DNA of 64,000 nt. Origin: Streptomyces sp. NBC_01788. GTDB taxonomy: Bacteria; Actinomycetota; Actinomycetes; Streptomycetales; Streptomycetaceae. Made by a program: the position numbers and the translations under genes. The stretch lies in NCBI RefSeq assembly GCF_035917575.1, contig NZ_CP109090.1, positions 6,510,001 through 6,574,000 on the forward strand. Direction: 5' to 3'. Below are positions 6,593 through 56,620 of the stretch, piece by piece; the first letter of the stretch is position 1, and each line of letters opens with the position of its first letter. The notes beneath the pieces were generated by a model. That model saw only the letters and a program-made list of their open reading frames with translations, was not told where the DNA came from and made no database searches.

Positions 6593-7937
6593 CCGTGTCT
6601 CCGCCGCGATGGGTGCCGGCGCGCGCCGGCGGGACAGTGCCCCGCTGGGGCTGGATGAGTGGGCGCAGTTCTTCACGTTCGGCGGTCTGAACTATCCGAT
6701 GGTTCAGACGACGATGAACGCGATCAACGAGGAACAGATCGCGCTCACCTCGTCAGCAGCCTTCAAGAGCAACGGGCCCGTGTTCGCCCTGGTCGTCGCC
6801 AGGCTGCAGGTGTTCTCCCAGGTGCGGTTCCAGTGGACCCGCTTCGAAGCCGGACAGCCCACCAGCCTCTTCGGATCCACGGAGCTGGGGGTGCTGGAGC
6901 GGCCGTGGCCGGGCGGCACCACCGGCGACCTGCTCGCCCGCATGGAGGTCGACGCCTCCCTCGCCGGGAACGCCTACATCCGCCGCACACGAGCGGACCG
7001 GCTGAACCGGCTGCGCCCGGACTGGGTCATCGTCGTCCTCGGCTCGAAGGAGAACGCCGACCACCCGTCCGAGGCCGCAGACGTCGAAGTCGTCGGGCAC
7101 GTCTACGACCCGCCCTCCGGGCCGATGAAGTTCTTCCCCATCGACGGCAGCGAGGGCCGTATCGCGCACTACGCGCCGCTGCCCGACCCCGACTTCCACT
7201 TCCTCGGCCAGTCGTGGATCACCCCCGTCATCCGGGAGATGCAGGGCGACAGCCTCGCCACCGAGCACAAGGCGCGCTTCCTGACGAACGCCGCCACACC
7301 GAACATGGCGATCAAGTTCGACCCGTCGGTGTCGCTGAAGCAGGTCCGCGACTTCAAGGAGCTCATGGAGGCCGAGCACAAGGGCGCCTGGAACGCCTAC
7401 AAGACCCTGTACCTGGGCGGCGGCGCGGACGCGAAGGTCATCGGCAAGGACTTCCGCGAACTCGACTTCGCCGCAACGCAGGGCAAGGGCGAGTCCCGGC
7501 TCGCCGCCGCAGCTGGCGTCCCCCCGTCCTGGGTCGGGTTTTCCGAAGGCCTCCAGGGGTCAAGTCTGAACGCCGGAAACTTCACGGCCGCACGCCGCCG
7601 CTTCGCCGACGGCACCATGCAACACCTGTGGAGCAACGCGTCCGCGAGCCTGGAGCCCCTCCTCACCCCGCCCGACGCCGGCGCGAGCCTCTGGTTCGAC
7701 ACCAAGGCCGTCGCGTTCATGCGCGAAGACGCCGGCGACCGGGCCGCGATCGCGCAGAAGGAAGCCTCCACCATCACCGCCCTCGTCAGGGACGGGTTCA
7801 CCGCCCAGTCCGCGATCGACGCGGTCATGAACCAGGACTGGACCAGGCTCCAGCACACGGGCCTGACCTCCGTGCAGCTGCAACGCCCCACCGACGGCGT
7901 CCAGCCCATGCCGAAAATGGAAGGAGCCGGCCCGTGA
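6579..7937 (+). CDS. Phage portal protein (HK97-like)
   Basis: 452 residues, the usual length for HK97-type portals. Typical features are the N-terminal helical entry, the conserved block around GNAYIRR (about residues 127-133) and the middle section EHKARFLTNAATPNMAIKF that precedes the stem and clip helices. The dodecamer forms the DNA entry and exit channel and the docking site for terminase and connector. The GTG start overlaps the small membrane protein; the stop overlaps the protease GTG, preceded by AAGGAG at 7921-7926, so the genes are coupled. Confidence 0.93.
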   Translation: MGLLDRVSAAMGAGARRRDSAPLGLDEWAQFFTFGGLNYPMVQTTMNAINEEQIALTSSAAFKSNGPVFALVVARLQVFSQVRFQWTRFEAGQPTSLFGSTELGVLERPWPGGTTGDLLARMEVDASLAGNAYIRRTRADRLNRLRPDWVIVVLGSKENADHPSEAADVEVVGHVYDPPSGPMKFFPIDGSEGRIAHYAPLPDPDFHFLGQSWITPVIREMQGDSLATEHKARFLTNAATPNMAIKFDPSVSLKQVRDFKELMEAEHKGAWNAYKTLYLGGGADAKVIGKDFRELDFAATQGKGESRLAAAAGVPPSWVGFSEGLQGSSLNAGNFTAARRRFADGTMQHLWSNASASLEPLLTPPDAGASLWFDTKAVAFMREDAGDRAAIAQKEASTITALVRDGFTAQSAIDAVMNQDWTRLQHTGLTSVQLQRPTDGVQPMPKMEGAGP

Positions 7938-10435
7938 CCGGACAGCTCTACTCGCGCGTATTCGCGCTGGACGACATCGCCATCCGGGCCGGCGGGGACG
8001 GCCGCACTGTCACCGCATACGCCGCCGTCTTCGACAGCCCTGCCGAGATCCGCGACCAGGACGGCCACTACCAGGAGCAGATCTCCCGCAGCGCGTTCGA
8101 CAAGACGCTGAAGGAGCGCGCCGGCCGCGTCGGCGTGTTCTACAACCACGCCCGCACCCTGCACGGCACCCCCAGCGAGAAGGGCTCGGTGCCGATCGGG
8201 ACGCCGCTGGAGGTCCGCCCCGACGGGCGCGGCCTGCTCACCGTCACCCGGTACAACAAGACGCCGCTGGCGGACGACGTCCTCGAGGCGATCCGCAACG
8301 GGGACATCACCGGGCAGTCCTTCACCGGACGGTTCATCAAGTCCGACCCGAAGGGCCCCTACCTGCCGGCGCGGGCCGGTGACCTGACGCTGGTCACGCG
8401 GCAGGAGATCGCGCTGATCGAGTACGGGCCCACCCCGATCCCCGCCTACCACGACGCCGAGATCGTCGGAGTGCGAGCGGACGGCACCGCCGCCGACCGG
8501 GGCAACATCGACACCCCCAACGCCGCCGACCTGAACACCGAGGCCCGCGCCTACGCGGCCGCTGAGGGCTGGGCGATGGAAGACGGCTCGTATCCGGTCC
8601 GGCCGCTGGAGATGCACGGCCGCCAGGACCTCGAAGCCGCCATCCACGCCGTCGGCCGCGGCTCCGGATCCCACGACCAGATCCGCGCGCACATCGTCAA
8701 GCGCGCCCACGCCCTCGGCCTCCAGGCGCTCATCCCCGCCGACTGGCCGGGCACCCCCACGACTTCCGGCGGCAGCACGACCGGCACCGCCGCCGGCAAC
8801 ACGACCAGCACTTCGGGCCGGACCGAGCCCGCCAACGGCACTCCAGCCGCCCCCAGCACTGGAGCCGCCACCGGCAGGACCGAGACCACGCACGGAGCCG
8901 CGACCGAGCCGCGAACGCACTCGGTGACCACCCAGACCAGCACATCCCGGGAGGGAACCATGGACGACCGCATGACGGTCGAAGAGCGCGCCGCGCGCCA
9001 GAGCGAGATCCGGGCGCGGCTCCAGGAGATCGAGGGCGAATACTCGGGCGCGACGATGCCCGACGAGATCCAGACCGAGTGGAACGGGCTCCTGGAGGAA
9101 AACGACGAGCACGGGCGGGCCATCGCCGAGTCCGAGCTGCGCAGCGCCCAGCTGCGTGCCGTGCTCGACAACCCGACCGCGACCGAGCGGGTGGCCCCCA
9201 CGACGGTCGGCTACGGCGGCCGCGCCCCGGCAGTCATCACCACCCGGGACATCTACGACCTGACCGAGGCCCGTTCGCAGGCGCGCTCCCTGGAGGAGCT
9301 GCCGGGCATCTACCGGGACCGGGCGATGCGCGCCATTGAGCTGTCGCAGTTCCCGGGCATGGAGTCCCGGGAGGACGCGCAGACCCGCGCGGCCTACCTG
9401 GTGGAGACCATCGACGACGAGCACGGCACGCTCGCCCGGCGCATGCTCCAGACCGGCAGCCCCGTCTACAACCGGGCGTTCGGCAAGATGATCAGCGCGC
9501 TGTCGCAGAACGGGCTCACCGCGGAGGAGTCCCGCGCGCTCCAGCTCGGTGTCGACGCGTCCGGCGGCTTCGCGGTCCCGTTCCAGCTGGACCCCACCGT
9601 CATCCTGACGAGCGATGGCACGATCAACCCGCTGCGGGAGGTCGCGCGGATCGAGCAGATCGTCGGCAAGGAGTGGGATGGCGTCACCTCCGCCGGCGTC
9701 ACCGTCACGCGTGGCGCGGAGAACGACGAGGCCCCCGACTCGTCGCCGACCCTCGCCCAGCCCAAGGTAGTCACGCAGCGCGTCCAGGGCTTCGTGCCGT
9801 TCAGCGTGGAGATCGAGCGGTCGTGGAACGCGATGCGCTCCGAGATCACCATGCTGCTCCAGGACGCCAAGGACACCGAAGAGGCGACTTCGTTCGTTCT
9901 CGGTGACGGCACCGGCACGAACGCAGGCGGCATCATCGGCACCCTGCCGTCGAACCGCCGTGTCTCCTCCGCTGCGACCGGCACCCTCAGCGTCCCCGAC
10001 GACATCTACGCCGTCGAGGAGTCGCTGGCGCCCCGCTTCCGGGCCCGCGCGTCGTGGCTCGGCAACAAGAGCATCTACAACCGGATCAAGTCCGTCGCGG
10101 CCACCATGGGCGGCCTGTCCAACGACCTGTGGGCGCGGCTCGGTGCGGGCCTGCCGCCGGAGCTGGCTGGCTACGCCGCCCGCGAGCTGTCCTCGATGAA
10201 GGACTCGATCGCACCCAGCGGCGGCGGGAACAACCTGGTGCTGCTGTTCGGCGACTACAAGCGGGGCTTCCTCATCGTCGACCGCATCGGCATGAGCATC
10301 GAGCTCGTCCCGCACCTGTTCGGGCCGAACGGCCGCCCGACCGGCCAGCGCGGCATCTACGCCTACTGGGGCAACAACTCCAAGATCCTCGTCCCGCAGG
10401 CGCTGCGCGCCCTGAACGTCGTCAGCCCCGCCTGA
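7934..10435 (+). CDS. Prohead protease fused in frame to the major capsid protein
   Basis: 833 residues. Residues 1 to about 180 are an HK97-type (S78) prohead protease: FYNHARTLHG with likely catalytic His72 and TGQSFTG with likely Ser129. A helical module follows (HGRQDLEAAIHAVGRG ... ALGLQALIPADW), then a Thr/Gly/Ala-rich linker at about 275-335. From about residue 343 (MDDRMTVEERAARQ) come a coiled delta-domain and the HK97-fold capsid protein, with PVYNRAFGKMI, LQLGVDASGG and the C-terminal LVPHLFGPNG region. The protease would process scaffold and capsid during maturation. An in-frame ATG at 8960 with its own ribosome site could give free capsid protein of 491 residues. Confidence 0.92.
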   Translation: MTGQLYSRVFALDDIAIRAGGDGRTVTAYAAVFDSPAEIRDQDGHYQEQISRSAFDKTLKERAGRVGVFYNHARTLHGTPSEKGSVPIGTPLEVRPDGRGLLTVTRYNKTPLADDVLEAIRNGDITGQSFTGRFIKSDPKGPYLPARAGDLTLVTRQEIALIEYGPTPIPAYHDAEIVGVRADGTAADRGNIDTPNAADLNTEARAYAAAEGWAMEDGSYPVRPLEMHGRQDLEAAIHAVGRGSGSHDQIRAHIVKRAHALGLQALIPADWPGTPTTSGGSTTGTAAGNTTSTSGRTEPANGTPAAPSTGAATGRTETTHGAATEPRTHSVTTQTSTSREGTMDDRMTVEERAARQSEIRARLQEIEGEYSGATMPDEIQTEWNGLLEENDEHGRAIAESELRSAQLRAVLDNPTATERVAPTTVGYGGRAPAVITTRDIYDLTEARSQARSLEELPGIYRDRAMRAIELSQFPGMESREDAQTRAAYLVETIDDEHGTLARRMLQTGSPVYNRAFGKMISALSQNGLTAEESRALQLGVDASGGFAVPFQLDPTVILTSDGTINPLREVARIEQIVGKEWDGVTSAGVTVTRGAENDEAPDSSPTLAQPKVVTQRVQGFVPFSVEIERSWNAMRSEITMLLQDAKDTEEATSFVLGDGTGTNAGGIIGTLPSNRRVSSAATGTLSVPDDIYAVEESLAPRFRARASWLGNKSIYNRIKSVAATMGGLSNDLWARLGAGLPPELAGYAARELSSMKDSIAPSGGGNNLVLLFGDYKRGFLIVDRIGMSIELVPHLFGPNGRPTGQRGIYAYWGNNSKILVPQALRALNVVSPA
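8949..8962 (+). promoter_or_regulatory. Internal ribosome site and start for free major capsid protein
   Basis: GGGAGGGAACC stands directly before ATG 8960, in frame with the protease. This is stronger than most starts in the operon and falls exactly at the head of the capsid delta-domain. Confidence 0.5.
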
Positions 10436-24166: not shown

Positions 24167-25117
24167 ATGGCACGCATGCCCGGCGCCACTCAGCGCCTCA
24201 TCTCGATCAACTACACCAAGGGTGGCCAGTCGTCCGTGCGGGGCGTCGTCGTCCACATCATGGATGGCAGCTACGCCGGTACGGACTCCTGGTTTCGCAA
24301 CCACCCCGAGGCGAAGGCGTCAGCGCACTTCGGCACCAGCCGCGTCGGCGACCTGTGCCAGTGGGTCGACACAGCCGACCGCGCGTGGGCCCAAGCAGAC
24401 GGCAACTCCAACTGGCTCAGCGTTGAGAACGAGGGCCGCGGCGGCGAAGACCTCACCTCCGCCCAACTCGACCGCAACGCGCAGGTACTCGCATGGGCGC
24501 ACAAGACGCACGGCGTGCCGCTCCAGGTGACCAACGACCCGAACGGGAAGGGTCTCGGCTACCACGCGATGGGCGCGAAGGCGTGGGGCAACCACCCGTC
24601 GTGCCCGGGCGCCCGCGTCGTGGCGCAGCTCGCCGAAATCGTCACCCGCGCGAAGAAGATCGCCGGGGCTGCGTCGGGCGGCACGACCTACACCGTGAAG
24701 GCCGGGGACACCCTGACCTCGATCGCCAAGGCGCACAGCACGACCGTGGCCGAACTGGTGGCGGTCAACGGTCTCAAGGACCCGAACCACATCTCGGTCG
24801 GCCAGGTCCTCAAGCTGCCCGGAGCGTCGAAGCCAGTTCCGCCGGCACCGGCTCCGTACACGCCGCCCCCGTTCCCCGCAGGCCTCGCCCCCAACAAGGC
24901 CAAGCCGTCAGCCCGTGGCCTTCAGCGCGCGCTCAAGGCCGCCGGGTTCATGCCCAAGACGGTCGCGGAGGCCGACAACTACGGCCCGCAGACGCAGAAG
25001 GGGGTGGCCGCGTTCCACAACGCCCACCCGCAGTTCCGGGCCAAGGGCGTGTCCTACGACCCGGCGATCGGCCCGCAGGGCTGGGCTGCGCTGCACCGTC
25101 TCGCCTACGGCAAGTAG
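24167..25117 (+). CDS. Endolysin: N-acetylmuramoyl-L-alanine amidase with LysM and wall-binding domain
   Basis: 316 residues. The catalytic Amidase_2/PGRP domain spans about 1-165: VVVHIMDG with zinc-binding His30, ASAHFG, and GNHPSCPG with further ligands. A LysM motif follows at about 179-224 (TYTVKAGDTLTSIAKAHSTT ... VGQVLKLPG). After a Pro-rich linker, residues 245-316 form a peptidoglycan-binding-like helical domain (ARGLQRALKAAGFMP, NYGPQTQKGVAAFH). There is no signal peptide, so release depends on the holins downstream. ATG 24167 follows TGGAGG. Confidence 0.9.
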   Translation: MARMPGATQRLISINYTKGGQSSVRGVVVHIMDGSYAGTDSWFRNHPEAKASAHFGTSRVGDLCQWVDTADRAWAQADGNSNWLSVENEGRGGEDLTSAQLDRNAQVLAWAHKTHGVPLQVTNDPNGKGLGYHAMGAKAWGNHPSCPGARVVAQLAEIVTRAKKIAGAASGGTTYTVKAGDTLTSIAKAHSTTVAELVAVNGLKDPNHISVGQVLKLPGASKPVPPAPAPYTPPPFPAGLAPNKAKPSARGLQRALKAAGFMPKTVAEADNYGPQTQKGVAAFHNAHPQFRAKGVSYDPAIGPQGWAALHRLAYGK

Positions 25118-25135: not shown

Positions 25136-25375
25136 ATGAAACCCATGCTGACTCGTGCTTTCTGGGAGGCCAGCGCCGAGCGGGCGGTGCGCACTTTCGC
25201 CCAGTCCACGCTGGCCGTGCTCGGGGCCGGCTCGTTCGGGCTGCTCGATGCGCCGTGGCAGGCGGCGTTGAGTACCGGCGGGTTCGCCGCGGTGCTCGCC
25301 GTGCTCACCGCCGTGGCGACCAGCGGCGGTAGCGAAGGGCCGGGCCTCACCGAGACCGTGACCAAGGACCGCTGA
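25136..25375 (+). CDS. Holin-like membrane protein
   Basis: 79 residues, with two hydrophobic segments at about 23-37 and 43-64 and a charged C-terminus (ETVTKDR). Such small two-span proteins directly after the endolysin are typical actinophage holins. There are two possible starts: ATG 25136, two bases after GAGGGG, and ATG 25145, about 11 bases after it. A two-start arrangement is known for holin/antiholin control, but here it may be accidental. Confidence 0.7.
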   Translation: MKPMLTRAFWEASAERAVRTFAQSTLAVLGAGSFGLLDAPWQAALSTGGFAAVLAVLTAVATSGGSEGPGLTETVTKDR

Positions 25376-25692
25376 TGACCGCGGCCCCGGACCCGACGAC
25401 CAACGTCGCAGTGGAGCTGGCGCAGCTACGAGGGGAGATCAACACGGGGCTGGAGAACATCAAGGGCACGCTGGGCATCCTCGTCGAGCGCACCACGCGA
25501 ACCGATGCGGATGTCCGCCAGCTGCGCGCCGACATGGAAGAGGAGCTCAAGAAGATCCGTGAGGAGCAGCTGAAGCCGCTTCGGGACGAGGTGGAAGCCC
25601 TGAAGCAGGCCCGCTGGCCGCTCGCTCAGCTCGGCGCCCTGGTCGGCGTGGCTGGCCTGGCGGCCGCGGTCGTCGCCTTCTTCATCCACTGA
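25375..25692 (+). CDS. Second lysis protein: coiled coil plus C-terminal membrane anchor
   Basis: 105 residues, start overlapping the stop of the holin (TGATG). Residues 10-75 form a charged coiled coil (LRADMEEELKKIREEQLKPL). Residues about 82-103 are one transmembrane segment ending in FFIH. This resembles small phage proteins encoded after the holin, thought to be a second holin or membrane-disrupting accessory. It is the last gene before the strong terminator. Confidence 0.65.
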   Translation: MTAAPDPTTNVAVELAQLRGEINTGLENIKGTLGILVERTTRTDADVRQLRADMEEELKKIREEQLKPLRDEVEALKQARWPLAQLGALVGVAGLAAAVVAFFIH

Positions 25693-25733
25693 CCTGGCCG
25701 CACCTGCTACAGACGGCTACAGATCGTCTACTG

Positions 25734-25761
25734 GCCCCCGTCGCCTCCGGGCGGCGGGGGC
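25734..25761 (+). terminator. Strong stem-loop ending the late operon
   Basis: A 12-bp stem (GCCCCCGTCGCC / GGCGGCGGGGGC, one T-G wobble) with a 4-nt loop, followed by TTCGTC. It closes the long + strand late transcript. Confidence 0.75.
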
Positions 25762-25768
25762 TTCGTCA

Positions 25769-25794
25769 TGTCCTGAGGCTTGTGTTTCAGGACA
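25769..25794. promoter_or_regulatory. 8-bp inverted repeat, possible operator
   Basis: TGTCCTGA (25769-25776) and TCAGGACA (25787-25794), 10-nt spacer. It lies between the late terminator and the HAD gene and is spaced like a dimeric regulator site. The rest of the 320-bp gap 25693-26012 holds only the hairpin at 25911. Confidence 0.4.
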
Positions 25795-25910
25795 CCATGG
25801 CGCATTGTGGGCGTTCCACCGCCTCACCGGTGCTCTCCGCAAGGGGTCCGGCGCCTCCCGGGGGCGGTGGTCGGCCCCCTTCGATCCCCCCGGGTGGAAG
25901 TGGCGCCACC

Positions 25911-25939
25911 GCCTCTGCTGTTTCATCAACAGCAGAGGC
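25911..25939. terminator. 12-bp perfect stem-loop upstream of the HAD gene
   Basis: Arms GCCTCTGCTGTT and AACAGCAGAGGC with loop tcatc. It is too stable to be chance. It could be a terminator, attenuator or operator for the HAD hydrolase 74 bp downstream. Confidence 0.55.
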
Positions 25940-26012
25940 TCACTTCTGTCAGGACTTCCACGCTGCTGGACTGGCCACTCGGTGTCAGGGCTGCGGGCCT
26001 AGGCTTCCAGGC

Positions 26013-26654
26013 GTGATTGAGACCATCGTGTTCGACATCGGCGAGACGATCACCCGCGACGACCGATACTGGGCTTCCTGGGCCGACTGGCTGGACGTCC
26101 CCCGGCACACCCTCTCCGCCCTTGTAGGAGCAGTCGTCGCCCGAGGGCAAGACAACGCCGAAGCCCTCCGCCTCGTCAGACCGGGCATCGACGTCGCTGC
26201 CGAGTACCAGGCCCGCGAAGCCGCCGGCCGAGGCGAGTACCTGGACGAGAGCGACCTCTACCACGATGTGCGCCCTGCCCTGACCGCGCTGCACGAGCTC
26301 GGGGCGCGTCTGGTCATCGCTGGGAATCAGACACCCCGGGCCGGTGAACTGCTGCGCGGTCTGGGCCTCCCTGCAGACCTCATCGTCACCTCGGGGGAGT
26401 GGGGGGTCGCCAAGCCGCAGCCGGAGTTCTTCGAGCGGGTACTGGATGTCACGCAGGCAGCACCGAGCGCAACCCTCTACGTCGGCGACCACCCGGCCAA
26501 CGACATCTTCCCGGCGAAGGCCGCAGGTCTGCGCGCAGCGCTGATCCGTCGTGGCCCGTGGGGGCACCTGTGGGCGGATACTCCCGACGTCGTGAAGGCG
26601 GCCGACTGGCGGATCGACAGCCTCACCGAGCTGACCGCCGTCCTCGACCGCTGA
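26013..26654 (+). CDS. HAD-family hydrolase
   Basis: 213 residues from GTG 26013. The longer open frame (from 25782) crosses the hairpin and lacks protein character. Motif I is VFDIGET (nucleophile Asp near residue 7; the second Asp of DxDxT is replaced by Gly). Motif II is the IAGNQT region, motif III Lys in KPQPEFF, motif IV VGDHPANDI. A helical cap lies at about residues 15-95. Substrates could be small phosphate esters; the altered motif I may affect acid-base catalysis. It stands alone between hairpins and precedes the XRE regulator. Cargo of the phage arm or of an adjoining island. Confidence 0.85.
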   Translation: MIETIVFDIGETITRDDRYWASWADWLDVPRHTLSALVGAVVARGQDNAEALRLVRPGIDVAAEYQAREAAGRGEYLDESDLYHDVRPALTALHELGARLVIAGNQTPRAGELLRGLGLPADLIVTSGEWGVAKPQPEFFERVLDVTQAAPSATLYVGDHPANDIFPAKAAGLRAALIRRGPWGHLWADTPDVVKAADWRIDSLTELTAVLDR

Positions 26655-26662
26655 TGGTGTGA

Positions 26663-26698
26663 AACGGCCCCACGAGCCCGGGGGTTGGTGGGGCCGTT
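26663..26698 (+). terminator. 11-bp perfect stem-loop after the HAD gene
   Basis: Arms AACGGCCCCAC and GTGGGGCCGTT with a 14-nt loop, 8 bp after the HAD stop. Confidence 0.65.
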
Positions 26699-26703
26699 CA
26701 GGT

Positions 26704-26716
26704 ACACGCGACGTGT
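26704..26716. promoter_or_regulatory. Short palindrome in the XRE regulator promoter region
   Basis: ACACG-CGA-CGTGT, nested inside GGTAC...GTACC arms (26701-26728). It is 46 bp before the regulator start and suitable for autoregulation. Inference only. Confidence 0.3.
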
Positions 26717-26761
26717 AGACGCGGGTACCGTTCGGAGTGGACGCACCGAACTGGAGCCAGT

Positions 26762-27949
26762 ATGCCCGCACATGCCGACGACGGCGTAGGCAGGCGCATC
26801 GCCTACTACCGCAGCGTCGTACGCCCGAAGATGACACAGCAGCAGCTCGCCGACATGGCCTGTGTCTCGCTCGGCACTATCCGCAAGATCGAGCGCGGTG
26901 AGCGAGGCGTCACCGACGCCACCCTGGAAGCCATCGCGGACGCCCTCGGTGTCGACCCGAGCCGTCTGCGCACCGATCGCGACGCCACACCTACCCGAGT
27001 CCACGACGCACTTCCCGCGCTCTCTGCAGCGATCGCCACCTATGACCTTCCCGAGGACGGTCCTGTCCGACCCCTGCACGAGCTGCGGACAGCGGTCGAA
27101 GAAACCGTCCGGTGGCGAGTCGCCGCTCAGTACACGCGGATCGTCCGTGTGCTCCCCGATCTGCTGACCGAGCTCGCCCGCGCCTACCACTCGGCCCCGA
27201 CGGAAGACCGAGCCGAACTCGCGGGCCTCCTCGTCAAGGCGTACCGCTCCGCTGACGCTGTCGCCTACAAGTTCGGATCCCGGGACCTGTCCGCCCGCCT
27301 GATCGACCTGATGCGGTGGGCCGTCCCCGAGGCCAACGACCCCACACTGACCGCATCCGTCGCCTACGTGCGCACCGAGACATTCTTCGCTGCTCGCGCC
27401 CACACGGCTGGCCTACGAGCACTGGAGCAGGCGCTGGACGCCGCACCTGCTCCAGCGGCCACACCCGCCATCGCGGCACGAGGCGCGCTCCACATGCGGG
27501 CGGCCGTCATCGCAGGTCGGGACCACGACAACTCAGCCGCGGCTCACCACCTGGACGAAGCCCGTGCGCTGGCCGACCAAGTCCCCGAAGACGTCTACTG
27601 CGGAACCGCCTTCGGCCCTGACTCAGTGCGCATTCATGAGGTGTCGGTCGCCGTCAGCCTCGGAGACGCCCACATCGGCCGCGCGCTGGACCTCGCCACC
27701 GAGTGGAAGCCCCCCAAGGACCTGCCGGCGGAACGCCGGAGCGGCTTCTACATCGAACTCGCCCGCGCCCAGCTCTGGACTGGCCTGGCAGACGACGCCT
27801 TCGAGTCTCTGAAGGTCGCCCGGCACATCGCGCCACAGCACACCCGTGAGCACCCGTGGGTCCGCGAGGACGCCGCGACACTGCGCCGCCTGAAGCGCGC
27901 CGACTCCGAGACCCTCACCAACTTCGCCGAGTGGTGCGCCGCCACCTGA
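26762..27949 (+). CDS. XRE-family regulator with C-terminal TPR-like helices
   Basis: 395 residues. The HTH covers about residues 10-68 (QQQLADMACVSLGTIRKIER, DATLEAIADALGVDP). From about 100 to the end helical repeats follow, with TPR-like spacing (AALHMRAAVIAGRDHDNSAA-type segments, YIELARAQLWTGLADDAFES). Regulators with this architecture are common in Streptomyces beside small accessory and RiPP genes. Here it heads a same-strand series leading to the graspetide operon. The ligand of the helical part is unknown; a small peptide or protein partner is usual for HTH-TPR proteins. Confidence 0.8.
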   Translation: MPAHADDGVGRRIAYYRSVVRPKMTQQQLADMACVSLGTIRKIERGERGVTDATLEAIADALGVDPSRLRTDRDATPTRVHDALPALSAAIATYDLPEDGPVRPLHELRTAVEETVRWRVAAQYTRIVRVLPDLLTELARAYHSAPTEDRAELAGLLVKAYRSADAVAYKFGSRDLSARLIDLMRWAVPEANDPTLTASVAYVRTETFFAARAHTAGLRALEQALDAAPAPAATPAIAARGALHMRAAVIAGRDHDNSAAAHHLDEARALADQVPEDVYCGTAFGPDSVRIHEVSVAVSLGDAHIGRALDLATEWKPPKDLPAERRSGFYIELARAQLWTGLADDAFESLKVARHIAPQHTREHPWVREDAATLRRLKRADSETLTNFAEWCAAT

Positions 27950-27964
27950 GCGAGCTACCCCAAC

Positions 27965-27981
27965 TACCCCTCGCTGGGGTA
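27965..27981 (+). terminator. Short stem-loop after the XRE regulator
   Basis: TACCCC-tcgct-GGGGTA, followed by CTTGTTG. An alternative stem, AGCGAG (27949-27954) with CTCGCT (27970-27975), would exclude it, so the two are mutually exclusive folds. Confidence 0.45.
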
Positions 27982-28004
27982 CTTGTTGCCCATTCGAGCC
28001 CCCA

Positions 28005-28037
28005 CCATCTGCTGCACGCGTAGGAACCAGCAGATGG
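28005..28037. promoter_or_regulatory. 10-bp perfect inverted repeat before the small-gene series
   Basis: CCATCTGCTG (28005-28014) and CAGCAGATGG (28028-28037), 13-nt spacer, ending 9 bp before the start at 28047. It could be an operator for the XRE regulator, or a leader hairpin that hides the ribosome site. Confidence 0.5.
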
Positions 28038-28046
28038 GAATCGGGG

Positions 28047-28244
28047 ATGCCCAACGCACTCCCGCTCGCGCCCACGGTCATCGACGGGCGCGTGAGCATT
28101 GTCCGCCTGCACGGTGAGGCCTGCTTCGACTGCGGAGCGGTTCACAAGGCCCTGCGCGCGGCTGGACACGTCGTGGTCCGTGGCAGCACTCGCGTGTGGG
28201 AGATCTTCACGTGCGGATGCCGCAGCAAAGGGGCTGCTGCGTGA
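28047..28244 (+). CDS. Small cysteine-containing protein (65 aa)
   Basis: Two pairs of cysteines, CFDC at about residues 26-29 and CGC at about 57-59, could bind a metal ion. The rest is basic and short. Small proteins of this type accompany XRE/TPR regulators in Streptomyces accessory cassettes. The ATG follows TCGGGG. Function not known. Confidence 0.55.
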   Translation: MPNALPLAPTVIDGRVSIVRLHGEACFDCGAVHKALRAAGHVVVRGSTRVWEIFTCGCRSKGAAA

Positions 28245-28332
28245 CCGGTGCACCGAGGATCAGTGGACCCCGGCGGCCGAGCGACCGGCCCCGGGGCGCG
28301 GCCAACGCTCAATCCGGAGAGGGAGCGTCGAC

Positions 28333-28713
28333 ATGAGGAACGCTACAACCCCAGCCCCAGCCACGACAGAGCGGGACGCGTGCCCGCCGGACATCGTCAC
28401 GATGCGCGCCAGCGTCCGCCGGCTGCTCGCTGAGGACGTCGAACCGCCCGCGCCGGACGAGCTGCCCACGCTGGCCTTGCTGCTGCGCGGCCACATCAAC
28501 ACGCTCATCCCGGCCGTGGAAGCCGCCACCCGCAGCCTGCCCAAGAACGACGTGCCCAAGGCCTGCGCGATGGCGTGCGTCGGCGAGGCGCGGATGAGGC
28601 TGCGCATCGGCGACGGGGACAACGACGCCGTCCGCCTTGCCGTGGCCGTCAGGCTGGCCCGCTCAGTGAACGCGCTCGCCGACCACTACGAGAACCTCGG
28701 AGGCCCGCGGTGA
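28333..28713 (+). CDS. DUF6415-like protein
   Basis: 126 residues from ATG 28333, preceded by GGAGAGGGAG. A mostly helical protein (IVTMRASVRRLLAEDVEPPA, TLALLLRGHINTLIPAVEAA, CVGEARMRLRIG) resembling the family annotated, from memory, as DUF6415 natural-product biosynthesis protein. Members occur next to HTH regulators and RiPP or other biosynthetic genes in Streptomyces. No catalytic motif is evident. Its stop overlaps the start of the next gene. Confidence 0.6.
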   Translation: MRNATTPAPATTERDACPPDIVTMRASVRRLLAEDVEPPAPDELPTLALLLRGHINTLIPAVEAATRSLPKNDVPKACAMACVGEARMRLRIGDGDNDAVRLAVAVRLARSVNALADHYENLGGPR

Positions 28714-28916
28714 TCACGGCCGCTCGCCTCTGCCAGGCCTGCCGCGAGGACATCACCGACCCGGACGACGCCGTGTTCCTCGGGCACGAGGAAGGCAACT
28801 CGGGGCCCGGCTGGGACATCTACGCACACCGCGCGCACGTCGACCAGGTGCACCCGGACCCGGTCGCGGAGCGGGCCCTGGCCCGCGTCCTGATCGCGCT
28901 GGCCTTCGAGTCATGA
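28710..28916 (+). CDS. Small hypothetical protein with CxxC motif
   Basis: 68 residues from GTG 28710. CQAC at about residues 8-11 and His-rich middle (AHRAHVDQVHPDP) suggest a metal site of zinc-finger type. It is overlapped at both ends by neighbours, consistent with one transcript: DUF6415-like gene, this gene, the tiny membrane peptide. Confidence 0.55.
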   Translation: MITAARLCQACREDITDPDDAVFLGHEEGNSGPGWDIYAHRAHVDQVHPDPVAERALARVLIALAFES

Positions 28917-28999
28917 GAGCCATCGTCGGCCTGCTCGCCTACGTGATGGCCGTGACCGCCCCCGTCCTCGCCCTGGTGCTGGCGCGGACCCCGCACTGA
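28913..28999 (+). CDS. 28-residue membrane peptide
   Basis: Start in an ATGA overlap with the preceding stop. MRAIVGLLAYVMAVTAP continues into a hydrophobic stretch covering almost the whole peptide and ends in a basic Arg-Thr-Pro-His tail. Translational coupling supports it, but it is so short that chance cannot be excluded. Confidence 0.4.
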   Translation: MRAIVGLLAYVMAVTAPVLALVLARTPH

Positions 29000-29052
29000 C
29001 GCACCCCCATGGCGGCCGCTCCGGGGGACAGGGCCGCACACCCTTTCAAGCC

Positions 29053-29090
29053 CCCGTCCCGCCGGGCCCTGCAAGACCCGGCGAGACGGG
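29053..29090 (+). terminator. Two-part stem-loop in the graspetide leader region
   Basis: Outer arms CCCGTC/GACGGG and inner arms CGCCGGG/CCCGGCG, separated by one mismatch, around a 10-nt loop. It lies 78 bp before the precursor gene. Either it ends the small-gene transcript or acts as an attenuator for the RiPP operon. The gap 29000-29167 also contains the presumed tgmA promoter. Confidence 0.5.
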
Positions 29091-29167
29091 TCACAGCCCC
29101 CTTCGGCCAATACGGCCGCACGCGGGGGGACACCGTTTCAGCGATTCGAGCAAAGGACAGACAACCG

Positions 29168-29461
29168 ATGACAGTTGTGGATGTGCGGGAAGCGTTCCCG
29201 CTCGCGCCCGAGGGCGGGCGCATCCCGCACAGCACCGAGCCCCCGACCGGGCCGGACAGCCGACCGTGGGCCCTGCGCTTCGCCCGCGTCCCCGACGCCA
29301 CGCAGGCGACCGTCCTGCCGCCCGCGGTCTACGACCCGGCCGTGCAGATGTCGGTCGGCCTGTACGACGGGCCGCTGCCGTACATGCAGACCCACAGCCC
29401 GACCATCCCCGACGGCAACGTGAAGAACCCGCCGCCGCTCGACGAGGGCACGAAGGACTGA
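29168..29461 (+). CDS. tgmA: Graspetide (omega-ester RiPP) precursor peptide
   Basis: 97 residues. The ATG follows AAAGGAC at good spacing. A leader-type motif PWALRF (residues 33-38) and the following VYDPAVQ block (54-60) are the conserved features of the ATP-grasp target RiPP family that precedes tgmB. The C-terminal segment after about residue 61 (MQTHSPTIPDGNVK, then PPPLDEGTKD) contains Thr75, Ser77, Thr79 and Thr95 as possible hydroxyl donors and Asp82, Asp92, Glu93 and Asp97 as acceptors for ester crosslinks. At 97 residues it is longer than many graspetide precursors. It is immediately followed by tgmB and tgmC. Confidence 0.85.
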   Translation: MTVVDVREAFPLAPEGGRIPHSTEPPTGPDSRPWALRFARVPDATQATVLPPAVYDPAVQMSVGLYDGPLPYMQTHSPTIPDGNVKNPPPLDEGTKD

Positions 29462-29465
29462 TGCC

Positions 29466-30434
29466 GTGATGCCCGCCGTTCTCGTGATCGCGGCACGCGA
29501 CGACTGGCCCACCGACCGGGTCGTCAAGACGCTCACGGACGGCGGTGCGGAGGTGTTCCGCATGGACACCGCCGAGTTCCCGCAGGACCTCACCCTCGCC
29601 GGGCGCATCGACGCCCGGCGAGGGTGGGCCGGCGGGCTCGCCTCCCCGCACCGTGCCGTCGACCTCGCCGACATCACCGCCGTCTACTACCGCGCCCCGA
29701 ACGCGTTCGCGCTGCCCGCCACCATGTCCGAGCCCGAGAGGCGGTTCGCCGCCGCGCAGGCCCGCTCCGGACTGGGCGGCATCATCACAGCCCTCGACTG
29801 CCGCTGGGTCAGCCATCCGGCGGTCATGTCCCGGGCCGAGTACAAGCCCTTGCAGCTCGCCACCGCGCGCGCCTGCGGGCTCACCATCCCGGCCACCCTC
29901 ATCACCAACAACGCCGACGCCGTCCGGGCGTTCGTCGGCGACGTCGGCGGCCAGGTCGTCTGCAAGCCGGTCGCCTCACCGGTGCTGATCGAAGACGACC
30001 AGCTCAAGACCGTCTACACCCGCCGCCTCACCGAGGGCGACCTTTCCGACCTGCGCGGCATCGACACCACTGCCCACCTGTTCCAGGCCTGGGTCGACAA
30101 GGCCCACGAGGTGCGGCTCACGGTCGTGGGGGAGCGGCTGCTCGCCGCCGAGGTCCACGCGGGAAGCGACGCGGCCCACACCGACTGGCGCAGCGACTAC
30201 GCCTCCCTCACGTACCAGGTCACCGAAGTGCCTGCCGACGTCGCCGACGGCGTGCGACGCTACATGGACCGGCTCGCGCTGCGCTTCGCCGCCATGGACT
30301 TCATCGTCGGCCCCGACCGGCAGTGGACGTTCCTGGAGGCCAACCCGTGCGGGCAGTGGGACTGGATCGAGCACGCCACCGGCCTTCCCATCGCCCAGGC
30401 CATCGCCGACGAGCTGCAAGGAGTGCCCGCATGA
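29466..30434 (+). CDS. tgmB: ATP-grasp ligase for graspetide macrocyclisation
   Basis: 322 residues, GTG 29466 (ATG 29469 possible), 4 bp after the precursor stop. ATP-grasp features: GGQVVCKPVASP with the ATP-binding Lys (about 160), the hinge-like region HLFQAWVDKAHEVRLTVVGE, and C-terminal metal-binding FAAMDFIVGPDRQW...FLEANPCGQW. The N-terminal pre-ATP-grasp domain (1-110) holds DDWPTDRVV and would bind the leader. It activates Asp/Glu side chains as acyl phosphates and joins them to Ser/Thr hydroxyls (or Lys amines). This is the SAV_5884-type maturase family. Confidence 0.92.
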   Translation: MMPAVLVIAARDDWPTDRVVKTLTDGGAEVFRMDTAEFPQDLTLAGRIDARRGWAGGLASPHRAVDLADITAVYYRAPNAFALPATMSEPERRFAAAQARSGLGGIITALDCRWVSHPAVMSRAEYKPLQLATARACGLTIPATLITNNADAVRAFVGDVGGQVVCKPVASPVLIEDDQLKTVYTRRLTEGDLSDLRGIDTTAHLFQAWVDKAHEVRLTVVGERLLAAEVHAGSDAAHTDWRSDYASLTYQVTEVPADVADGVRRYMDRLALRFAAMDFIVGPDRQWTFLEANPCGQWDWIEHATGLPIAQAIADELQGVPA

Positions 30435-31606
30435 CCCTCCCCGTCGACACGGCCCGCCCGCACATGCTGGACCTCGCCGGCGAGCTGACCAAGACCGGCG
30501 CCGTCCGCACCGCCCCGTGGGCCGAGGCGTTCGCGAGCACCCCGCGGCACCTGTTCGTCCCTCAGTGGCTGGAGCAGGAGACCAACGACCGGGGCATCAC
30601 CGTGTGGCGTCACCGGCACGCCTCCGATGAGGGCGCCCTCGCCGCCGTCTACCGCGACGTGACGCTCGTGACGGCCCTGGACCCCGCGACCGCCGAGCAG
30701 GTCGACGACACCGCATGGACGGGCATCCCCACCTCGTCCAGCACGCTGCCGAGCCTCATGGCCGGCATGCTCGAGGACCTGGCGGTGGACGACGGACACA
30801 AGGTCTGGGAGATCGGCACCGGCACCGGCTACAACGCCGCCCTGCTGTGCGCCCGCCTCGGTGACGCCTTCGTCCACTCCAGCGACGTCGACCCCGAGCT
30901 GCTCCAGACCGCGCGGGAACGCCTCGCGGGCCTCGGCCACCGGCCGCACCTCGCCGCCGGCGACGCACGCGGCGGCTACCCGAACGACATCGTCTTCGAC
31001 CGCGTCATCGCGACCTGCTCGGTTCCGTCGATCCCGGCCGCCTGGATCGCGCAGACACGACCCGGTGGCGTCATCGTTGCCGACGTCGCGCTCGGCATCG
31101 AGGGGGGCCTCGTACAGCTCGCCGTGGACAAGGAAGGAGGCGCCGCAGGCGCCTTCACAACGACGGCGGGCCGCTTCATGCCCGCGCGCGGCGAGGCCCG
31201 CACCTACCCGACGTCGCCGCGGTCCGAACGCGCGCCGGATGCCGGACGCCGGCCGACCACGCTCACCGCGGCCGACATCCGCGCCCACTACCCGCTGCGC
31301 CTGGTCCTGGCCCTGCATCTGCCAGGCGTGGAGCTCGTCTACCACGTCGACGAGGCCGGCGTGATGGCGCTCCAGCTCCAGGACCGTGACGGGGCGTGGG
31401 CTCGCGTCCCGCTTGCCGGCGACGACACCGGCACGGTCTGCTACGGCGGTGACGGCGAGCTGTGGAGGCAGGCGGAAGCCGCCTGGGACTGGTGGAACAG
31501 GGCGGGCCGCCCCGCCCAGGACCGGTTCGGCTACGCCCGGGACACCGACGGTGTCACCCAAGCCTGGTACGAGCCGGACGGAACACGCTGGAACCTGCCC
31601 GGCTGA
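30431..31606 (+). CDS. tgmC: PIMT-like methyltransferase of the graspetide system
   Basis: 391 residues, ATGA overlap with tgmB. SAM-binding motif I is WEIGTGTGYNAALL (about residues 120-133). N-terminal TPRHLFVP and TSSSTLPSLMAGMLE are hallmarks of protein L-isoaspartate methyltransferases. The C-terminal extension (about 240-391; TLTAADIRAHYPLRLVLALH ... WYEPDGTRWNLPG) is typical of the RiPP-associated family rather than housekeeping Pcm, which is about 210-230 residues. In characterised graspetides such enzymes methylate an Asp of the cyclised peptide, giving aspartimide. Product chemistry here is unverified. Confidence 0.9.
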   Translation: MTLPVDTARPHMLDLAGELTKTGAVRTAPWAEAFASTPRHLFVPQWLEQETNDRGITVWRHRHASDEGALAAVYRDVTLVTALDPATAEQVDDTAWTGIPTSSSTLPSLMAGMLEDLAVDDGHKVWEIGTGTGYNAALLCARLGDAFVHSSDVDPELLQTARERLAGLGHRPHLAAGDARGGYPNDIVFDRVIATCSVPSIPAAWIAQTRPGGVIVADVALGIEGGLVQLAVDKEGGAAGAFTTTAGRFMPARGEARTYPTSPRSERAPDAGRRPTTLTAADIRAHYPLRLVLALHLPGVELVYHVDEAGVMALQLQDRDGAWARVPLAGDDTGTVCYGGDGELWRQAEAAWDWWNRAGRPAQDRFGYARDTDGVTQAWYEPDGTRWNLPG

Positions 31607-31619
31607 TCGCCCCATGACC

Positions 31620-31661
31620 GGCCCCGCTCGTCCGCTTCCCCCGTGGCGGATGGGCGGGGCC
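31620..31661. terminator. Bidirectional stem-loop between tgmC and the XRE repressor
   Basis: Outer arms GGCCCCGC/GCGGGGCC and inner TCCGC/GCGGA; followed by TTCCCCT. It stands between convergent genes. Confidence 0.7.
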
Positions 31662-31672
31662 TTCCCCTGCCG

Positions 31673-31903
31673 TCAGCCGACGAGAACGGAGACGCGGGTG
31701 TCGAGCACAGCCGCAATCCGAAGTAAGTCGCTGTAGCGGGGGTCGCCCTCACCGGACTCGATGCGCTGGAGCGTGCTGCGGCTCAGCCCTGTGGCCTCAC
31801 AGAAGGATTCCTGGGTGTGGTGCGCCGCGGTGCGCAGGTCTGCGATTCGTTCGCCCAGCTCCCGGCGCCGCTGAATGATCCAGTCCGGGTGATCGCGAGG
31901 CAC
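31673..31903 (-). CDS. Small XRE-type repressor
   Basis: 76 residues, consisting almost only of an HTH of Cro/CI type: RIADLRTAAHHTQESFCEAT, then LSRSTLQRIESGEGDPRYSD and LLRIAAVLDTRV. Transcribed from the right, convergent with the graspetide operon. Could be the lysogeny-maintaining repressor, a regulator of cargo genes, or a stand-alone antitoxin-like HTH. Its promoter lies in the relatively AT-rich stretch 31904-31969. Confidence 0.75.
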   Translation of the reverse strand: MPRDHPDWIIQRRRELGERIADLRTAAHHTQESFCEATGLSRSTLQRIESGEGDPRYSDLLRIAAVLDTRVSVLVG

Positions 31904-31969
31904 TCGACAAACGTGGAGTGTGCATGTTCATATGTCAGCACCAGCCCTGATGCTTTTGGTGATGGCCCG

Positions 31970-32242
31970 TCACATGTGGTGTCCGGTGCTGTTGAGCTCC
32001 CGCCCCACTGGAGGACTGCAAGCCTCCGGTGGGGCGGGTTTCTGCTGTGTGCGGTCCGCCGTTCGATCGCGCAGCAACAGCCACGGTCCGGCGGCGCCGG
32101 CGCTCGGTTGGTCGGCTGCGTCCAGGAGCGTGGCGTAGGCGGCCGGACCCGCCCTTCGCGCAAGGGGGTCGTCCAGGGCCTGGTCGCGGGCGGGGCGAGT
32201 CATGGCCTTCCATGCCTGGTCAGCGCGTGATGCGCTCAGCAC
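31970..32242 (-). CDS. Possible small protein at the phage right end
   Basis: 90 residues from a GTG at 32242, with GGGGAGG 4-5 nt upstream. MLSASRADQAWKAMTRPARD opens a helical, protein-like section, but the last 30 codons run through a stem-loop (31999-32038) and look degenerate. It may therefore be a shortened or decayed gene. No family recognised. Confidence 0.35.
   Translation of the reverse strand: MLSASRADQAWKAMTRPARDQALDDPLARRAGPAAYATLLDAADQPSAGAAGPWLLLRDRTADRTQQKPAPPEACSPPVGRELNSTGHHM
31999..32038. terminator. Long stem-loop near the phage right end
   Basis: Arms CCCGCCCCAC/GTGGGGCGGG and GGAGG/CCTCC, joined by a T-G wobble, give a 16-bp stem with loop actgcaag. It is followed by TTTCT in the + direction. 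Confidence 0.65.
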
Positions 32243-32264
32243 TGTGCCTCCCCGGCAAATAGGG

Positions 32265-32525
32265 TCATGGAGTGAAGTGCACGCACGCGTGCGTGCAGCC
32301 GCGGTACGGGTTGACCGTCCACTCGAAGGGCATGCGCGAAGCGCCCGGCACCCGGTTGATGATCGAACGGGCCCGGATCTCGTGGAAGGTGATCCCGCGG
32401 AACTCGGGAGTGTCGAAGGTACGTGTGGTGACCGCGTCCGCCCCGAAGAGCGCGGCGTCGGCGGCCCGGCCGTGACCGGGGTCCCCGGAGTTCTCCGGGT
32501 CCACGGTGAGGTTGTCCCAGCGCAT
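32265..32525 (-). pseudogene. 5' fragment of an Rv2578c-family radical SAM gene
   Basis: The ATG at 32525 follows GGAGGAGGCGCC. The product MRWDNLTVDP...VTTRTFDTPEFRGITFHEIR, then NRVPGASRMPFEWTVNPYRG and CTHACV, is the conserved N-terminus of Rv2578c-type radical SAM proteins, normally about 340 residues. It is cut after the second cysteine of the CX3CX2C iron-sulfur motif, so no active enzyme can be made. The rest of the gene is not in the window and should lie beyond the left end of the integrated element. This marks the insertion point. Confidence 0.85.
32278..32297. other. Probable right attachment junction (20-bp palindrome)
   Basis: TGCACGCACGCGTGCGTGCA is a perfect palindrome. Its host-derived part encodes Cys-Thr-His-Ala-Cys-Val of the radical SAM motif on the minus strand. 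Homology to that gene family stops right after the Val codon, and the frame then reads HFTP and a stop. The intact host gene would read TAC TGC TTC here, so the crossover lies at or just left of 32280. Confidence 0.6.
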
Positions 32526-32557
32526 GGCGCCTCCTCCGGTAGTGCTGGCCCCAGAAT

Positions 32558-32571
32558 AGAACACATGTTCT
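32558..32571. promoter_or_regulatory. LexA (SOS) box
   Basis: AGAACACATGTTCT contains GAAC-N4-GTTC, the core of the actinobacterial LexA site, 33 bp upstream of the radical SAM start. As I recall, Rv2578c and the adjacent gene belong to the mycobacterial LexA regulon, which agrees. Confidence 0.6.
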
Positions 32572-54930: not shown

Positions 54931-55035
54931 ACCGGCCGCGGTCCCAGGGGATCCCGCCCCCGTGTGTAAGAGACGTCCGCGCTCGCGCAGGTTTGGCCGT
55001 GGAGGTTGCGGCCACCCGAAGGAGAAGAGGTGGCC

Positions 55036-55365
55036 ATGGTGAAGAAGGACAACACCGCGGAGTCGCAGGGCTCGGGAGAGCCGGTGTCCCGGCCGCGGCC
55101 GATGGAGGTGCTGCGTGAGGCGCGGGCCCAGTTCGCCGAGTTGACGGGTCTGACCCCCGAGTCGGTGACGACCTTCGAGCAGACGGAGGACGGCTGGTCG
55201 CTGGAGATCGAGGTCCTGGAACTGGCCCGGGTGCCGGACACCATGAGCCTCATGGCGAGCTACCAGGTCGACCTCGACCCGGAGGGGCAGCTCACCGGGT
55301 ACCGGCGGCTGCACCGCTACGAACGCGGACGCTCCGACGCCCGCCGCTCCGGCGGCGGCCGCTGA
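55036..55365 (+). CDS. gvpO: Gas vesicle protein GvpO
   Basis: 109 residues from ATG 55036, preceded by GAGAAGAGG. The conserved core is PMEVLREARAQFAELTGLTP ... WSLEIEVLELARVPDTMSLMASY and the YQVDLDPEGQLTGYRRLHRY ending, followed by a basic tail. First gene of the gvp cluster. GvpO is essential or regulatory in halophilic archaea; its role in Streptomyces is not established. Confidence 0.9.
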   Translation: MVKKDNTAESQGSGEPVSRPRPMEVLREARAQFAELTGLTPESVTTFEQTEDGWSLEIEVLELARVPDTMSLMASYQVDLDPEGQLTGYRRLHRYERGRSDARRSGGGR

Positions 55366-55414
55366 GGCGGAACAAAGCCTCATACACAGACAACAGACGA
55401 GGAGTGCGGTTGGC

Positions 55415-55846
55415 ATGACCGTTGTCCCGGCACAGACGTCCGGCGGCGGAGGCGGCAGCAGCGGCCTGTACGACGTCCTGGAACTCGTTCTCGACAGGGG
55501 GCTGGTGATCGACGCGTTCGTGCGGGTCTCGCTGGTCGGTATCGAGATCCTGAAGATCGACGTGCGGGTCGTCGTCGCGAGCGTCGACACCTACCTGCGC
55601 TTCGCCGAGGCCTGCAACCGGCTCGACCTGGAAGCGGGCCCCCGCAAGGCTCCGGGCCTGCCCGATCTGGTGGGCGAGGTCACCGAGTCCGGCGCGCGCG
55701 GCAAGGCGAAGGGGGCGTTGTCGGGGGCGGCGCAGACCGTTTCCGACGCCTTCCAGCAGGCCCGTGACGAGCGCTCGGGTGAGGGCGAGGGGCGGCCGCG
55801 GGCGCGCAAGGCGGCGCCGACCCGTCGGAAGGAGGAGCAGGAGTGA
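55415..55846 (+). CDS. gvpA: Gas vesicle structural protein GvpA
   Basis: 143 residues. The GvpA core is at about 17-70: SGLYDVLELVLDRGLVIDAF, then VRVSLVGIEILKIDVRVVVA and SVDTYLRFAEA. This hydrophobic protein forms the ribbed shell. The tail (about 75-143; charged, Lys/Arg/Glu-rich) is much longer than in typical GvpA (about 70-75 residues), as is usual in Streptomyces. Preceded by GAGGAG. Confidence 0.92.
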   Translation: MTVVPAQTSGGGGGSSGLYDVLELVLDRGLVIDAFVRVSLVGIEILKIDVRVVVASVDTYLRFAEACNRLDLEAGPRKAPGLPDLVGEVTESGARGKAKGALSGAAQTVSDAFQQARDERSGEGEGRPRARKAAPTRRKEEQE

Positions 55847-56616: not shown

Positions 56617-56620
56617 CGCC

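Follow-up and report, generated by a model that had tools for sequence, protein, structure and literature searches.

A predicted graspetide cassette in the cargo slot of a Streptomyces prophage

Introduction

When a peptide-modification cluster lies at the edge of a prophage, does it belong to the phage, or to the chromosome beside which the phage happened to insert? The question is raised by tgmABC, three genes of Streptomyces sp. NBC_01788 that encode a putative precursor peptide, an ATP-grasp ligase and a homologue of protein isoaspartate methyltransferases (PIMT), and that would together make a graspetide, one class of ribosomally synthesized and post-translationally modified peptide (RiPP). 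The genes lie in a stretch of 64,000 nucleotides, here called the window, that corresponds to positions 6510001-6574000 of an 8.27-Mb single-contig genome. An earlier, sequence-only reading placed the cluster between phage lysis genes ending at 25692 and a host gene broken at 32280, took that break for the attachment site and regarded the boundaries of the element as conjecture; the placement and the boundaries are both borne out below. The comparisons reported here establish, at the level of sequence, a prophage, a slot within it, an intact cassette in that slot and a relative of the phage in excised order. We put a probability of about 0.78 on the reading that tgmABC is RiPP cargo of a temperate Streptomyces phage, seated in a prophage slot, with a graspetide product that is of advantage to the lysogen.

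The ends of the element and its target gene

The element is 66,631 bp long and runs from an attachment site (attL) to the left of the window to a second (attR) inside it. The attR core, CACGCA, lies at window positions 32280-32285, and comparison of the junctions locates the same core in attL at genome position 6475649, so that both ends of the inserted DNA, which the sequence-only reading had wanted sought, are in hand. Joining the flanks in silico at CACGCA yields a single frame of 380 residues from stop to stop, in which a CTHACVYC motif is restored and from which tgm is absent. The N-terminal piece of this target (attB) gene is matched by 53 of 61 genus genomes, its own included, and the C-terminal part, at genome positions 6474839-6475645 (tblastn) to the left of the window, is a radical SAM protein of the Rv2578c family (NF038135, 406.5 bits). 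Adjoining the C-terminal half is a large serine integrase (genome 6475637-6477097; PF00239 and PF07508; phrog_95). Between the junctions lie the hallmarks of a prophage, with genes for integration, packaging, head, tail and lysis (integrase, terminase, portal, a fused protease/major head protein, tail proteins, tape measure, endolysin and holin).

A homologous integrase occurs at E <= 1e-100 in four of 392 genus genomes, again counting the genome itself, and in all three of the others it sits near a piece of the same radical SAM gene, which ties this integrase to this target. In one (G149) some 640 bp separate it from the N-terminal half, and the C-terminal half was not seen; in another (G390) it adjoins residues 75-345, with the N-terminal half about 8 kb off; and in the third (G143) its neighbour is the C-terminal part, residues 1-58 being found about 2 kb off. 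The integrase was the sole match to element proteins in the stretches fetched from these genomes, whose elements look like small or decayed ones that lack tgm. Because both ends are found, the empty-site join restores the host gene and the integrase is linked to that gene, the tgm cluster is placed inside the prophage. As a separate observation, the target lies near the expected intein place of intein-containing Rv2578c proteins (the C-terminal half begins at position 78 of NF038135 and at position 335 of the intein model NF038136), and phage and intein may share the same conserved Cys-motif codons.

An excised relative

A related phage is found in a different arrangement. The IMG/VR contig 3300031939_000002 (IMGVR_UViG_3300031939_000002; G199), of 58,798 bp, carries a hydrolase of the haloacid dehalogenase (HAD) family, the regulator XRE1, a small Cys-containing protein (ZnR), tgmABC, a second regulator (XRE2), a serine integrase, early genes and then structural genes, the last of these in the order of the prophage. 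A second contig from another IMG dataset (3300031996_000201; G200) is 99.95-99.98% identical to it and bridges both of its ends across 283 bp. The two contigs together amount to a genome, closed or permuted, of about 59 kb; in it, tgm meets the integrase with no host DNA between. Like the window's phage, the relative has the same slot genes, tgmABC at 70-87% identity and many structural and early genes in common; unlike it, it was found in excised order and has a different integrase (best matches 28-32%), which makes another attachment site likely. Thus excised circular DNA containing tgmB, which the sequence-only reading had proposed to look for, is met with in a related phage and not for the window's own.

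An old chromosomal cluster?

The opposing view holds that tgm is an old chromosomal cluster and that the phage merely inserted beside it. TgmB is indeed common in the genus, with matches at E <= 1e-30 in 147 of 199 Streptomyces genomes, and the nearest TgmB of all, that of S. cinerochromogenes (L103, 89% identity), is chromosomal, DUF6415 being the one match to the phage gene set within 10 kb of it. (Gene contexts here and below were assessed with small query sets of our own, drawn partly from the same contigs, so that a missing gene does not mean absence and a 100% row is a self-match.) In S. echinoruber, moreover, the same radical SAM gene harbours tgmA and a truncated tgmB but no phage, which comes close to the case that the sequence-only reading had named as fatal to itself.

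The S. echinoruber locus (L123) repays a closer look. The radical SAM gene is split at the same place, and between its halves lie a flavoprotein, an XRE1-type regulator, DUF6415, tgmA, residues 2-163 of TgmB and part of XRE2; the search there found neither tgmC nor an integrase nor radical SAM residues 81-250. Its attR arm aligns with that of the window up to the core, and two viral contigs (L178, L183) carry, next to tgm, genes that share 79-81% identity with its flavoprotein and regulator. We read this locus as a decayed relative of the prophage rather than an ancestral chromosomal cluster: tgm does stand there in a truncated form without the phage, yet the remnant keeps phage-type genes and a homologous attR arm, and the host gene has lost a stretch. 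A second case that the sequence-only reading had feared, an attachment site at 25.7-26.0 kb, did not arise; nothing att-like was seen at 25.5-26.2 kb, where the best match to the 36-bp centre of attP has 18 mismatches, and a site there was rejected. With attR to the right of tgm, attL and the integrase beside the C-terminal half 66.6 kb to the left, flanks that join into an intact gene lacking tgm, and tgm joined to an integrase in the excised relative, neighbouring chromosomal DNA was likewise rejected as the source of the cluster, and the old-chromosomal view is hardly credible.

A conserved slot with exchangeable cargo

As prophage cargo, the cluster occupies a slot whose order is HAD hydrolase, XRE1 (a helix-turn-helix (HTH) regulator with tetratricopeptide repeats (TPR)), ZnR, variable cargo, antisense XRE2, attP and integrase; the interval delimited by the sequence-only reading thus holds, beyond tgm, the HAD hydrolase, XRE1 and XRE2 of a phage module. 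A search with 11 aligned HAD proteins found 36 IMG/VR contigs, phage VWB included. XRE1 directly follows HAD in 36 of 36 and ZnR relatives occur in 32 (tblastn); at least 17 hold an XRE2-like gene, and at least 17 have an integrase-like gene no more than 7.1 kb away. The slot-gene counts are lower bounds because seven of the contigs end within 4 kb of HAD. TgmB is present in four (two of which represent one virus), and tgmA stands at the broken end of one further contig (L157).

What fills the slot elsewhere is variable. One contig (L137/L169; L137:12181-14198) has a radical SAM protein with an adjoining TIGR04188-like PIMT-like methyltransferase (247 bits), possibly another RiPP module; in L152 a TIGR04188-like methyltransferase (293 bits) stands by itself, and the methyltransferase of L142 is of another kind. 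No precursor was recognised in the L137/L169, L152 or L142 slots, so their cargo is peptide-related by conjecture, and an FxLD-like peptide after the L152 methyltransferase was dropped as antisense to the XRE2 gene. The isolated phage VWB (NC_005345) resembles the window's phage in its succession of HAD (gp55), an HTH regulator (gp56) and a small antisense XRE gene (gp58), followed by attP and integrase, and an annotated terminator near its right end; it differs in carrying gp57 where tgmABC sits, in having a tyrosine integrase, and in matching few other proteins of the element.

Judged by gene context, HAD and XRE1 are phage genes and uncommon neighbours of chromosomal tgm. Among the closer TgmB relatives mapped in bacterial genomes, two (L106 and G007) have HAD and XRE1. 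Separately, HAD and XRE1 stand in one genome (G089:C1, about 943500-951800; L085) beside two different TgmB genes, 46% identical to that of the window and 62% to the nearer of two TgmB queries. What is new here is the conserved slot with exchangeable cargo together with the excised relative, tgm being one of several cargos.

The cassette and its predicted product

The sequence-only reading called the three genes intact, and so they are: tgmA, tgmB and tgmC are uninterrupted, co-directional and almost gapless, the stop of tgmB overlapping the start of tgmC. TgmA passes the cut-off of TIGR04186 (33.6 bits against 25) and TgmB that of TIGR04187 (390.7 against 350). TgmC, with 80.5 bits against PF01135 (cut-off 20.3), is a PIMT homologue beside tgmB, and by its scores is TIGR04188-like rather than a member of that subfamily. 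The best solved structural relative of TgmB is the ATP-grasp ligase 5ig9. Residues K127, K167, D278, E291 and N293 of TgmB are invariant among nine aligned relatives, and residues of this kind have roles in ATP-grasp enzymes. The motif TxPDG is present in all 18 aligned precursors, and within the window's own precursor lineage THxPTxPDG and NPPPLDEG each occur in 16 of 17. An ATP-grasp maturase above its cut-off thus adjoins a precursor with conserved hydroxyl and acidic core residues, as in a graspetide cluster.

Ratios of nonsynonymous to synonymous substitution (dN/dS), calculated for the window against L154, L106 and L103 in that order, are 0.24, 0.41 and 0.29 for tgmA, 0.31, 0.21 and 0.14 for tgmB, and 0.37, 0.35 and 0.38 for tgmC. 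Values of 0.14-0.41 for tgmA and tgmB and of 0.35-0.38 for tgmC point to purifying selection on the tgm genes. The ratios for DUF6415 (0.74-1.14) were set aside, the alignments being poor.

The closest described system is that of the group 13 PIMT-associated graspetides of Streptomyces sp. F-3 (SsfA/SsfB/SsfM; PMC10787088), in which precursor, ATP-grasp enzyme and PIMT homologue are likewise clustered. In that system SsfB closes five ester rings on SsfA, and SsfM converts Asp81, which precedes Gly82, to isoaspartate via an aspartimide (PMC10787088). Residue numbers in SsfA go up to 97, which is also the length of TgmA; Asp82-Gly83-Asn84 of TgmA corresponds to D81-G82-N83 of SsfA, whereas the last 12 residues of SsfA hold four Asp and no Glu and TgmA ends in NPPPLDEGTKD (PMC10787088). 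Unlike the SsfA/B/M cluster, tgmABC lies on a temperate phage, and its product is predicted from the genes. By analogy, that product is likely a graspetide in which residue 82 is either an aspartimide or an isoaspartate. Judging by the enzyme families, TgmB would form macrocycles on the C-terminal core of TgmA through side-chain esters or amides, and TgmC would methylate the conserved Asp82 that precedes Gly83, which would lead first to an aspartimide and then to isoaspartate.

Spread of TgmB among phages and chromosomes

Relatives of TgmB are found on 34 distinct IMG/VR contigs. In ten of them TgmB is preceded on its own strand by a lysin-like gene (the match in L203 is only 28% identical), the excised pair has phage tail genes upstream (in G199 only across its ends), and nine have an integrase-like gene within 5 kb downstream (some matches 28-29%). 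In INPHARED there are only two distant relatives, at 31-32%. No close relative of TgmC turned up when viral contigs were searched. A TgmC-like methyltransferase, with no TgmB match, is present in five named isolated Streptomyces phages (eight records; for example NC_047793, 17861-19045; L192). Among these, PapayaSalad and its relatives (Austintatiousvirus) resemble the window's phage in this enzyme (gp24), which in PapayaSalad lies between lysis genes and a serine integrase, and differ in having no TgmB match, no neighbouring peptide seen with a TgmA core, and reversed orientation. PapayaSalad gp25 was rejected as a TgmA-like precursor; it is a Gly/Ser-rich protein of 48 aa that lacks the TgmA core.

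A tree of 54 TgmB sequences, from which L179 (internal stop) and partial or broken copies were left out, groups the window with L103, L023 and L106. Phage labels were assigned by hand from neighbouring genes; four IMG/VR rows (L026, L181, L185, L186), in which no phage genes were seen, stayed unlabelled. The 13 phage-labelled rows require nine label changes, against 11.9 after shuffling, a value as low being reached in 11 of 500 shuffles. Because of these nine changes, TgmB cargo is judged, from the tree, to have moved between phages and chromosomes several times. Judged by the neighbouring genes that were seen, the L103 cluster is chromosomal; because it branches from within phage rows, it may be a cluster left behind, or the donor.

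The same mixing on the tree can be read otherwise: the slot would be real and tgm passive or selfish cargo, host clusters having been copied into phage right arms by illegitimate recombination with no function for phage or lysogen. The decayed copies in S. echinoruber and G007 fit such a history. The dN/dS of 0.14-0.41 across tgmA and tgmB does not, nor does the occupation of the same HAD-XRE1 slot by two TgmB lineages in different phages, nor the retention of the three tgm genes together; we consider functionless cargo unlikely.

Several observations weigh against the reading of tgmABC as useful phage cargo, among them the abundance of TgmB in the genus and the chromosomal position of its nearest relative, both given above. 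TgmC scores 329.5 bits against TIGR04188 over most of its length, below the cut-off of 380, though this is its best family. In 22 of the 34 viral contigs no lysis or tail gene was seen upstream of TgmB with the queries used; ten of the 22, contigs of 59-199 kb, have divergent TgmB (30-39% identity) and no recognised tgmA or tgmC. The HAD-XRE1 pair is absent from 11 of 12 distant TgmB loci mapped, the exception being G089. Finally, Pfam, NCBIfam and PHROG scans of the cassette turned up no recognisable gene for export, leader cleavage or immunity, which weakens the case for a secreted weapon.

What the peptide might do

If tgmABC is RiPP cargo of the phage, the cluster would be expressed in lysogens, and the peptide would benefit them, most probably by helping them to compete with bacteria or phages nearby, cargo and phage spreading together. 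Competition is a first guess, made by analogy with bacteriocins on other prophages, of which sublancin on prophage SPbeta is an example.

A different possibility is that the peptide shields the lysogen from other phages, through superinfection exclusion or defence, rather than acting on bacteria. The tgm genes do adjoin the lysogeny end of the phage (XRE2, attP, integrase), and two other cargos of the slot match PADLOC profiles in part: the methyltransferase of L142 scores 76.5 bits against mad2, along some 115 of the 492 profile residues, and the radical SAM protein of L137 scores 37 bits against viperin. TgmB, HAD, ZnR and DUF6415, however, have no PADLOC match at 0.001, TgmC matches mad2 only over the methyltransferase part (49.5 bits), and in a survey of prophages in actinobacteria no clusters for known antiphage molecules are reported (PMC10023795). 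An antiphage role is conceivable and we give it a minor share of credence.

It is distinctly doubtful that the peptide is a signal read by XRE1, in a phage peptide-communication system built from a RiPP. The predicted XRE1 fold is HTH plus TPR (mean predicted local distance difference test score, 87.5), an architecture that fits peptide-sensing regulators of the RRNPP type; no Foldseek match was obtained at E <= 0.001, the TPR similarity is broad, and XRE1 may belong to another peptide-receptor family. Conserved with or without tgm, XRE1 is a candidate regulator of lysogeny or of the cargo. Only tentatively would we extend these ideas to a wider proposal, in which many Streptomyces temperate phages share the slot (HAD or flavoprotein, a peptide-receptor-like HTH-TPR regulator, antisense XRE), peptide-modification modules are swapped within it (tgmABC of two lineages, radical SAM plus PIMT-like, PIMT-like alone), and the phage itself profits from the modified peptide, either as a weapon or as a signal to which the slot regulator responds.

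Phage-borne biosynthetic clusters were reportedly the subject of work by Dragos in 2021, to go by its title. The survey of actinobacterial prophages found small clusters in prophages of 13 of the 2112 covered, with class I lanthipeptides in Streptomyces (PMC10023795). Those clusters resemble tgm as small natural-product clusters on prophages and differ in class, no graspetide or conserved slot being mentioned in the available part of the survey (PMC10023795). A study of RiPPs and phages in the ocean drops mostly viral contigs from its RiPP set (PMC11118758). We found no report of a phage-carried graspetide cluster in the open-access full-text literature, which is not proof of absence. The new setting that the sequence-only reading had claimed for graspetides thus holds as far as that literature goes, and is tempered by the precedent of RiPP clusters on prophages (PMC10023795); phage-borne RiPP clusters as such are already known. 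The locus shows a class of RiPP on a carrier from which, as far as we found, it has not been reported, in a slot with conserved border genes that can be searched for in any Streptomyces phage, and offers one route, as virus cargo, by which small natural-product clusters could pass between Streptomyces strains. It also makes the natural role of a graspetide tractable, since a lysogen, a cured strain and a tgm deletion can be compared directly.

Neighbouring genes and minor observations

Table 1. Features from the lysis genes to the host gene beyond attR (window positions)
Feature	Position	Strand	Basis
Endolysin (amidase + LysM), left neighbour of slot	24167-25117	+	Pfam Amidase_2, LysM; PHROG endolysin
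Holin	25136-25375	+	phrog_443, 1.8e-21
Small protein after holin, last lysis-region gene	25375-25692	+	phrog_5225, a PHROG of unknown function
HAD-family hydrolase, left border of cargo slot	26013-26654	+	Pfam HAD; 71% identity to VWB gp55
XRE1, HTH regulator with TPR-like superhelix, conserved slot gene	26762-27949	+	phrog_5823, 289.7 bits; 60% to VWB gp56
ZnR, 65-aa Cys-containing protein, conserved slot gene	28047-28244	+	tblastn relatives; no family match
DUF6415 protein	28333-28713	+	PF19979 on longer frame 28099-28713
68-aa small protein	28710-28916	+	Open frame; no family match
28-aa hydrophobic open reading frame (ORF) directly ahead of tgmA	28913-28999	+	Similar sequence precedes tgm in L103 (S. 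cinerochromogenes; ORF end at -822)
tgmA, predicted graspetide precursor, 97 aa	29168-29461	+	TIGR04186; conserved core
tgmB, predicted ATP-grasp macrocyclase, 322 aa from 29466, ATG at 29469	29466-30434	+	TIGR04187
tgmC, PIMT-like methyltransferase, 391 aa	30431-31606	+	TIGR04188-like, PF01135; phrog_13505, 358 bits
XRE2, small HTH regulator, right border of slot	31673-31903	-	HTH_31/HTH_3; 36% to VWB gp58
Terminator-like hairpin, 16 pairs, right end of element	31999-32038	+	Pattern scan
N-terminal half of host radical SAM gene (attB gene)	32286-32564	-	C-terminal half found 66.6 kb away

The pattern scan for hairpins, which covered 25300-32400, gave six sites against a mean of 1.5 in shuffled sequence. 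An Rfam scan of 20-36 kb returned nothing at gathering thresholds, and a promoter scan, weak evidence for Streptomyces, returned no sigma-70-like site.

Three further observations concern the surroundings of the slot. At 7937-10435 of the window a single frame of 832 aa joins head maturation protease and major head protein (phrog_80, phrog_10) in a protease-capsid fusion. The phage also codes for a Ku protein (PF02735, phrog_4873), at genome positions 6507684-6508598 (L002:17684-18598), inside the prophage to the left of the window. In the host chromosome, a gas vesicle gene cluster lies at window positions 55006-60574; its GvpA-like and GvpF/L-like proteins were tested and the remainder was judged by eye.

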